Positions 26,170 through 28,675 of a DNA stretch of 37,705 bases are shown one piece after another. The translations under genes were made by a program, and so were the position numbers. Location of the stretch: assembly GCA_902522585.1 (NCBI GenBank), contig CABYWI010000006.1:1-37705 (forward strand), read 5' to 3'. Within the stretch, counting starts at the first letter, position 1. Each line of letters opens with the position of its first letter. The notes under the pieces are model-generated. The model did no database searches, was not told where the DNA came from, and saw nothing but the letters and a program-made list of their open reading frames with translations. The stretch comes from an uncultured Alphaproteobacteria bacterium. Lineage in GTDB: Bacteria > Pseudomonadota > Alphaproteobacteria > HIMB59.

Positions 26170-27477
26170 TTAATTGAATTCAGGGTACGCAACTGTAGTT
26201 AATTCAGCTTTGTCTAATCCTACTGCTTCAGTTTCTTCATCCACTCTTAAGCCAGTTGTTGCTTTTAGAATATAGAAGCCGATTGCACTTAAAGGTACAA
26301 CTAGAACTGCTGCAGCTAAGATACCGACAATTTGAACCATCAGGTCACCACCGCCAAAAATACCGACAGCTAATGTACCCCAGATACCCGCTACTAAGTG
26401 AGCAGAAATCGCACCGACTACATCATCAATTTTCATTTTATCTAACATTGGGATCGCGATTGTACACACGATACCTCCGATAGCACCGATGATCATTGAA
26501 ATAAAGTGATTGGTTAAATCAGGACCCGCTGTAATAGCAACTAGTCCAGCAATAGCACCGTTAAGAGCAATGGATAAATCAATCTTCTTATACATGATCT
26601 GAGATAAGATGATTGCCGCTACTACACCACCACATGCTGCAATATTTGTATTTACAACAACAATAGAAATTGCAACTGCATCTAATGCACTACCTAGGGC
26701 TAGTTGAGATCCACCATTAAATCCGAACCAACCAAACCAAAGAATAAAAGTACCTAAGGCAGCAAGAGGCATATTTGCTCCAGCGATTGGAGAGATTTTC
26801 CCTTCTTTACTATATTTACCAGCTCTTGGACCTAAAATGAGACAACCTACAACAGCTGCCCAACCGCCTACAGAGTGAACGATTGTTGAACCAGCAAAGT
26901 CGGAAAAGCCCATTTCAGCTAACCAACCGCCGCCCCATGTCCATGAACCATAGATTGGATAGATTATTCCAGTCATAATGGCTGCAAAAATCATAAATGG
27001 CCATACTTTAATACGCTCAGCACATGCACCAGATACAATAGAAATCGCTGTTGCACAGAAAACCATTTGGAAGAACCAGTCAGATGCAACTGAATAACCT
27101 GTATCTGCAATTGCAGCGACATTATCGGCACCATCTAGGAGGGCGAGTTCGTCAGATGAGGGATTATAGAAAGCCCCTCCTAGCGATCCGATCCAACCTG
27201 ATACGTCTACATACATTAAGCTGTAGCCGACTAGGTAAAACATAATTCCAGCAATAGAGTAAAGTGCAATATTTTTTAATAAAATAGCAGATGTATTTTT
27301 CTTACGAACAAAGCCTGCTTCTAACATTGCAAAACCTAAAGCCATAAACATGACAAGAATTCCACCAAATATAAAAAGGAATGTATTAAAGACAAATGCT
27401 GTCTCTGCGGACACTTCTGCACTAGCTATTCCTGAAACTAACAAAGATGGAATTAGAAATGATAATATTTTTTTCAT
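26170..27477 (-). CDS. amtB: Ammonium transporter AmtB
   Basis: A 435-residue channel. The N-terminal signal peptide (MKKILSFLIPSLLVSGIASA) is followed by about 11 membrane helices. Amt motifs are visible: LGFAMLEAGFVRKKN, DWFFQMVFCATAISIVSGACAERIK, DFAGSTIVHSVGGWAAVVG with the pore histidine region, and FILWFGWFGFNGGSQLAL. It moves ammonium into the cell. It follows glnK by 9 bases; a GGAGATCCC sequence precedes the ATG. PII binding would close the channel when nitrogen is sufficient. Confidence 0.95.
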   Translation of the reverse strand: MKKILSFLIPSLLVSGIASAEVSAETAFVFNTFLFIFGGILVMFMALGFAMLEAGFVRKKNTSAILLKNIALYSIAGIMFYLVGYSLMYVDVSGWIGSLGGAFYNPSSDELALLDGADNVAAIADTGYSVASDWFFQMVFCATAISIVSGACAERIKVWPFMIFAAIMTGIIYPIYGSWTWGGGWLAEMGFSDFAGSTIVHSVGGWAAVVGCLILGPRAGKYSKEGKISPIAGANMPLAALGTFILWFGWFGFNGGSQLALGSALDAVAISIVVVNTNIAACGGVVAAIILSQIMYKKIDLSIALNGAIAGLVAITAGPDLTNHFISMIIGAIGGIVCTIAIPMLDKMKIDDVVGAISAHLVAGIWGTLAVGIFGGGDLMVQIVGILAAAVLVVPLSAIGFYILKATTGLRVDEETEAVGLDKAELTTVAYPEFN

Positions 27478-27486
27478 GGGATCTCC

Positions 27487-27828
27487 TTATTTAATTGCTT
27501 CCGCACCACGCTCGCCTGTACGAATACGAACAACATCAATGACATCAGTGACATAAATTTTTCCATCACCAATCTTACCTGACTTAACTGCTTCAGAAAT
27601 TGTTGTGATAACTTTTTCAACATCAGCAGATTCAACGAGAACTTCTGCTCTTGATTTTGGAAGAAAGTGTACCTCATATTCCGCGCCTCGGTACAATTCA
27701 GTGTGGCCTTTCTGGCGCCCATATCCTTTGGCCTCAACAATAGTCAAACCTTGGATATCCACACCAGTTAGTGCTTGTCTCAAGGCTTCAACTTTATCGG
27801 GCTTGATAATTGCTGTTACTAATTTCAT
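27487..27828 (-). CDS. glnK: Nitrogen regulatory protein PII (GlnK)
   Basis: From MKLVTAIIKPDKVEALRQALTGVDIQGLTIVEAKGYGRQKGHTELYRGAEYEVHFLPK the protein has 113 residues, the family length. Tyr51 in the T-loop (ELYRGAEY) is the uridylylation site, and the C-terminal RTGERGAEAI is typical. The track start at 27858 adds 10 non-family residues, and GTGAGG precedes the chosen ATG. Linkage to amtB identifies it as GlnK: it senses 2-oxoglutarate, ATP and ADP and regulates the channel. A TTGACT lies upstream at 27939-27944 (minus strand), but a -10 at the right spacing is not convincing. Confidence 0.95.
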   Translation of the reverse strand: MKLVTAIIKPDKVEALRQALTGVDIQGLTIVEAKGYGRQKGHTELYRGAEYEVHFLPKSRAEVLVESADVEKVITTISEAVKSGKIGDGKIYVTDVIDVVRIRTGERGAEAIK

Positions 27829-27985: not shown

Positions 27986-28675
27986 TTAAAGTTTTTTTTG
28001 ATTGATAACAACGTCAACTAAAATAGCTATTAGCAGGTTGAGCATCGTAATCCCACAGACAATGATAAAGCTAAAGAAATATATCCAAGCCCACCAATAG
28101 ATATCTTGAATCGGTAACATGACCTGCTCCCAAGAGGACAAGGTCAAAACCTGGAATAAAGTAATCATAGCTGTCCCTACATTTCCCCATCGACTAGGAA
28201 TATCCTCACTAAATAAAATTGATCCGATCGTAGAGTAAATATAGAGAATTATAAATAGAAGTAGACTGACATAAAAAACACGTTTTACAGATTGTAGTAG
28301 CGCCTCAATAATCATTTTTAATTCTGGAATGACAGAAATTATTCTTAAAACACGAAATACTCTCAGTAGTCGCAGTAAAAGAAAGCTTGAATTATTTGGA
28401 ATAGGAATCAAAGAGATACAAACTATTAAAGTATCAAAAACATTCCATCCACTTTTGAAAAATTGTGATTTTTTAGGTTCTCCTATAAATCGGATTGTAA
28501 TTTCGATTACAAAAAATATGGTGATTGAATAATCAAGTAAGTTAATTAAATTATTACTAAATTCTGATAACTCGTACGTATTGACACCGATAGTAAAGGC
28601 ATTAAAAATGATAATAGTTATAACTAAAAGTTGAAAAAATTTACTTTCTTTAATTTTAAAAAATGTTGTATTCAT
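27986..28675 (-). CDS. Voltage-gated ion channel, bacterial Nav/Cav-like, unusual filter
   Basis: A 229-residue single-domain channel with six helices. The S4 sensor has regularly spaced Arg (R102, R105, R108, R111 in LRLLRVFRVLRIISVI). The pore helix GTAMITLFQVLTLSSWEQVM (about 167-186) leads to S6 (IVCGITMLNLLIAILVDVV). In NaChBac-type sodium channels the filter reads TLESW(S/A); here it is TLSSWE: the ring Glu is Ser, and a Glu occurs after the Trp. Four subunits probably form the pore. The ion is uncertain (Na+, Ca2+ or a non-selective cation). The gene stands alone between the glnK regulatory region and the DUF1501 gene. Confidence 0.85.
   Translation of the reverse strand: MNTTFFKIKESKFFQLLVITIIIFNAFTIGVNTYELSEFSNNLINLLDYSITIFFVIEITIRFIGEPKKSQFFKSGWNVFDTLIVCISLIPIPNNSSFLLLRLLRVFRVLRIISVIPELKMIIEALLQSVKRVFYVSLLLFIILYIYSTIGSILFSEDIPSRWGNVGTAMITLFQVLTLSSWEQVMLPIQDIYWWAWIYFFSFIIVCGITMLNLLIAILVDVVINQKKL

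Follow-up and report, generated by a model that had tools for sequence, protein, structure and literature searches.

The crystal structure of the voltage-gated channel NavRh was reportedly published in 2012. It is deposited as PDB entry 4DXW (PMC6152994), and its source organism is the marine alphaproteobacterium HIMB114 (PMC4225499). The selectivity filter is TLSSWE (PMC5445024), also written TLSSWET (PMC4225499). Four Ser form the ring at the usual Glu site (S_HFS), and the Glu of the filter forms an outer site, IonEX; Ca2+ binds there, held by a barrier of roughly 10 kcal/mol, and Ca2+ from the periplasm blocks the flux of Na+ through the channel (PMC4444806). Spatially, the carboxylates of this Glu coincide with those of NavAb (PMC4225499). 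NaChBac with a grafted NavRh filter is Na+-selective, and expression of intact NavRh in mammalian or insect cells yielded no current (PMC4225499). The filter in the crystal is partly collapsed (PMC4444806; PMC6152994). Among the ancestor-like BacNavs, NavPp (filter TLEDWTD) is Na+-permeable with low-affinity Ca2+ block, and CavMr (TLEGWVD) is Ca2+-selective (PMC7041947).

We analysed a channel gene on the minus strand of the window, the whole stretch of 37,705 nucleotides under study (Table 1). The open reading frame is intact from ATG to stop and encodes a six-helix voltage-gated channel of 229 aa. Residues 12-226 match the Pfam domain Ion_trans (PF00520, E 3.3e-46). A match this strong excludes chance. 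The claim of the sequence-only reading that a bacterial voltage-gated channel is encoded here was confirmed, with the protein belonging to the BacNav superfamily. No other Ion_trans gene was found in the assembly, which is 54% complete. The product is presumably a subunit with six transmembrane segments that works as a homotetramer. Its S4 segment, FLLLRLLRVFRVLR, has regularly spaced arginines at R102, R105, R108 and R111; these had been noticed before and are found likewise in NavRh. The C terminus is short and stops at ...VVINQKKL, soon after S6. The chain ends six residues past the S6 region and so lacks a long C-terminal domain in the cytoplasm. In most members of the window's genus (L008-L034), a tail of about 31 residues (e.g., VNQNEKKDDMIKTRNNAEKLNEQFSEEISLDKLKKDQ) extends beyond S6, and such tailed forms reach 260 aa; in the window's own subclade, in NavRh and in other members, the chain ends right after S6 without it.

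Table 1. Positions in the window of the predicted channel gene and its functional segments.
Feature	Coordinates	Strand	Evidence
Predicted voltage-gated cation channel subunit, NavRh orthologue, 229 aa	27986..28675	-	ORF; Ion_trans; PDB 4DXW
S4 voltage sensor, residues 98-111	28343..28384	-	Sequence; arginines and their spacing match NavRh
Selectivity filter, T178-L-S-S-W-E183	28127..28144	-	Sequence; same in NavRh; invariance in homologues
S6 region, residues 194-223, including conserved N213	28007..28096	-	Sequence; NavRh ends likewise

The best match among all PDB chains was 4DXW (E 8e-101), in which residues 4-227 align with residues 4-227 of the window channel at 71% identity over 224 aligned residues. 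The other bacterial matches in the PDB were far weaker (E 1e-40 to 1e-36), and we take these entries to be NavMs-, NaChBac- and NavAb-type channels. The stretch FQVLTLSSWE is common to the window channel and 4DXW, in the same register and with the same residue numbers. The gene product is an orthologue of NavRh, real, intact, conserved and ordinary.

The filter codons, read from 28144 to 28127, are ACC TTG TCC TCT TGG GAG, exactly the filter given in the sequence-only reading. Position 3 is Ser rather than the Glu of canonical TLESW, and the sequence TLSSWEQ also differs from the TLExWxD pattern of filters in ancestor-like BacNavs (AnclNav). Thus, both the replacement of the canonical Glu ring by Ser and the presence of an acidic residue just past the Trp were correctly described. 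The novelty ascribed to this filter did not survive, because NavRh (4DXW) has the identical TLSSWE. The filter is already known from NavRh, a well-studied homologue, and a filter shared with such a homologue is what that reading had named as its refutation.

To describe how widely the filter occurs, we collected 137 homologous sequences at ≥60% identity, NavRh included. TLSSWE was found in 134 of them, TMSSWE in two and ILSSWE in one, and nearly all TLSSWE sequences are from marine alphaproteobacteria. The rare natural variants are located at L061:4001-4687 (ILSSWE), L065:2431-3117 and L113:4001-4687 (both TMSSWE). L113 is labelled Neomarinimicrobiota, which probably reflects either misbinning or a transfer. 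Across 85 distinct proteins, S180, S181, W182 and E183 are invariant, although four different codons are used at position 180, five at 181, one at 182 and two at 183; at 181, both serine families (TCN and AGY) are in use. Invariant residues encoded by such varied codons indicate purifying selection on the motif. An assembly or sequencing error was ruled out by the same synonymous variety and by the recurrence of the motif in independent genomes.

The gene itself is also widely kept. A match was found in 72 of 100 related genomes. In our species scan, in which each of 84,980 species was represented by a single genome, 222 stretches encoding a match were returned; among the 80 best of these, almost all were labelled Alphaproteobacteria or Pelagibacteraceae, and a relative with 90% identity was labelled HIMB59 isolate MED-G104. 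Two sequences, L133 and L134, match NavRh at every residue of the aligned part (100% identity), and their hosts belong to a family within the window's class and outside its order. Other proteobacterial genomes carry a deeper SSWE branch (L128, L131 and L136) with 64% identity and LVQVLTLSSWEQ as the filter context. Family f76 contains one member of this branch, and another f76 genus has TLESWSMG channels.

The invariance of the filter under synonymous drift, in a clade spanning 64-100% identity, argues against a non-conducting channel, a remnant with an occluded serine-lined filter that is decaying or serves only to sense voltage. The gene is also retained in 15 of 20 near-complete related genomes (≥90% complete, ≤5% contaminated) of only 1.2-1.6 Mb. 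Such a remnant would agree with the lack of current from NavRh in heterologous cells (PMC4225499) and with the serine side chains that occlude the filter in the crystal (PMC4444806). However, the simulated filter soon becomes accessible to ions (PMC4444806), and we regard a non-conducting channel as very improbable.

We then considered the ancestry of the filter. Other channels sampled in the window's class are at most 39% identical and mostly have TLESWSMG, whereas the lower edge of the SSWE group lies at 64-65%. The nearest outsiders across the phylum are 41-49% identical, come from other classes and have 263-296 aa; almost all have TFEDWTD, and some have TFESWA. In the TFEDWTD channels the register agrees with that of the SSWE group and is shorter by one residue than in TLESWSMG channels. 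Searching the literature for TFEDW gave nothing. In our trees, from which the CavMr and NavPp sequences were left out, the SSWE sequences including NavRh form one clade (100/100), placed beside the TFEDWTD/TFESWA outsiders and apart from the TLESWSMG channels. When the filter region was removed, the tree still recovered the SSWE clade (100/100) and still joined it to the TFExW channels (98/100), and the place of the LEDWTD group shifted. Direct derivation from TLESWSMG channels receives no support from the trees. These results suggest that the SSWE clade probably descends from TFEDWTD-type rather than NavAb-type channels; given the length of its stem, we call this ancestry likely, not proven.

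This position in the tree is also relevant to the earlier suggestion of a different ion preference, here taken as a Ca2+-permeable or non-selective channel. Such a preference would rest on the loss of the Glu ring and on the closest outside relatives, which have TFEDWTD or TFESWA and whose TFEDWTD filters are Ca2+-channel-like or NavPp-like. The additional residue of the NavAb-like TLESWSMG register is also absent from the window channel, and the TLExWxD filters include those of the Ca2+ channel CavMr and of NavPp, a Na+ channel with low-affinity Ca2+ block (PMC7041947). However, publications on NavRh do not bear out such a preference: its filter remained Na+-selective when grafted into NaChBac (PMC4225499), and Ca2+ was reported as a blocker, not as a permeant ion (PMC4444806). 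A truly different ion preference is thus unlikely.

The channel tree departs from host relatedness. Sequences from the window's order (f1 and f2) do not form one clade, and NavRh and Pelagibacteraceae sequences fall among them (AU p 4e-48, for a group picked after seeing the tree). The loci behind this mismatch are L132, L057, L133/NavRh, L035 and L039. Such a departure suggests either that the gene passed between HIMB59-type and SAR11 lineages or that old paralogues are involved. It may be that the pore charge moved once, in a single TLSSWE lineage, from the Glu/Asp of a TFEDWTD-type filter to one Glu past the Trp. This lineage would later have spread to streamlined marine alphaproteobacteria that are unrelated to each other (HIMB59-type, SAR11), and its filter would have stayed unchanged from then on. 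A pore that conducts Na+ and is blocked by Ca2+ would thereby have been reached a second time, by an independent route; we put the scenario forward tentatively and lean slightly against it.

The gene context was inconsistent between lineages. At 26170-27828, downstream of the channel gene and sharing its strand, are the paired genes amtB and glnK, which encode an ammonium transporter and a P-II protein. The gap between channel and glnK is about 160 bases in the window, whereas close relatives have about 1.3 kb of other sequence there. In these relatives glnK-amtB is near the channel, and DUF1501/DUF1800 genes are not always so. We found none of the window neighbours adjoining the channel in most other lineages. 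A functional operon was rejected on these grounds, and the gene context therefore yields no function. A phage origin was also rejected: the search of phage records for the channel gave no match, viral contigs gave one partial match, and the PHROG search gave a weak match only (unknown PHROG, residues 4-148).

By analogy with NavRh, we consider it very probable that the gene encodes a NavRh-like voltage-gated channel that conducts Na+, is blocked by Ca2+ and takes its acidic ring from E183. Its activity would most likely be Na+ entry triggered by depolarisation, with an outer ring of Glu that binds Ca2+. Four subunits would form one channel; on depolarisation the S4 arginines would move, the S6 gate would open and Na+ would enter. 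S180 and S181 would replace the usual Glu ring, and the carboxylates of E183 would reach the same pore region from a different backbone position. The outer Glu site would hold Ca2+ tightly and prevent its passage, so that Na+ is conducted and Ca2+ blocks. In this proposal, homology, filter identity, conservation and phylogeny come from our sequence analysis, and the structure, the Na+ selectivity of the grafted filter and the Ca2+ block come from the NavRh papers. Because NavRh gave no current in cells, gating and selectivity of an intact clade member rest on little direct measurement. For the physiological role, we infer a link between Na+ entry and the balance of Na+ or pH.

The question of the odd filter is mostly closed, since the filter is that of NavRh, and there is evidence for fixation of the motif across marine lineages. 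The roughly 85 distinct natural orthologues are a useful set, and some may express better than the currentless NavRh.

Compared with NavRh, the window channel has the same length of 229, TLSSWE at 178-183, the S4 arginines and no long C-terminal domain. They differ in 29% of residues and in Gln184, which is Thr184 in NavRh; HIMB114, the source of NavRh, is in Candidatus Pelagibacterales, whereas a close relative of the window carries a HIMB59 label. The six-helix voltage-gated fold and the filter position are shared with NavAb, NavMs and NaChBac (TLESW). However, these have a Glu ring where the window channel has Ser180, and their C termini are longer. Past the filter, NavAb-like channels are longer by one residue (TLESWSMGIVRP), in contrast to TLSSWE-QVMLP in the window channel. 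The register after the filter is the same in NavPp and CavMr (PMC7041947), and the nearest relatives of the SSWE clade carry TFEDWTD. NavPp and CavMr keep the Glu at position 3, which the SSWE clade has lost, and their outer acidic residue is at position 7, whereas that of the SSWE clade is at position 6.
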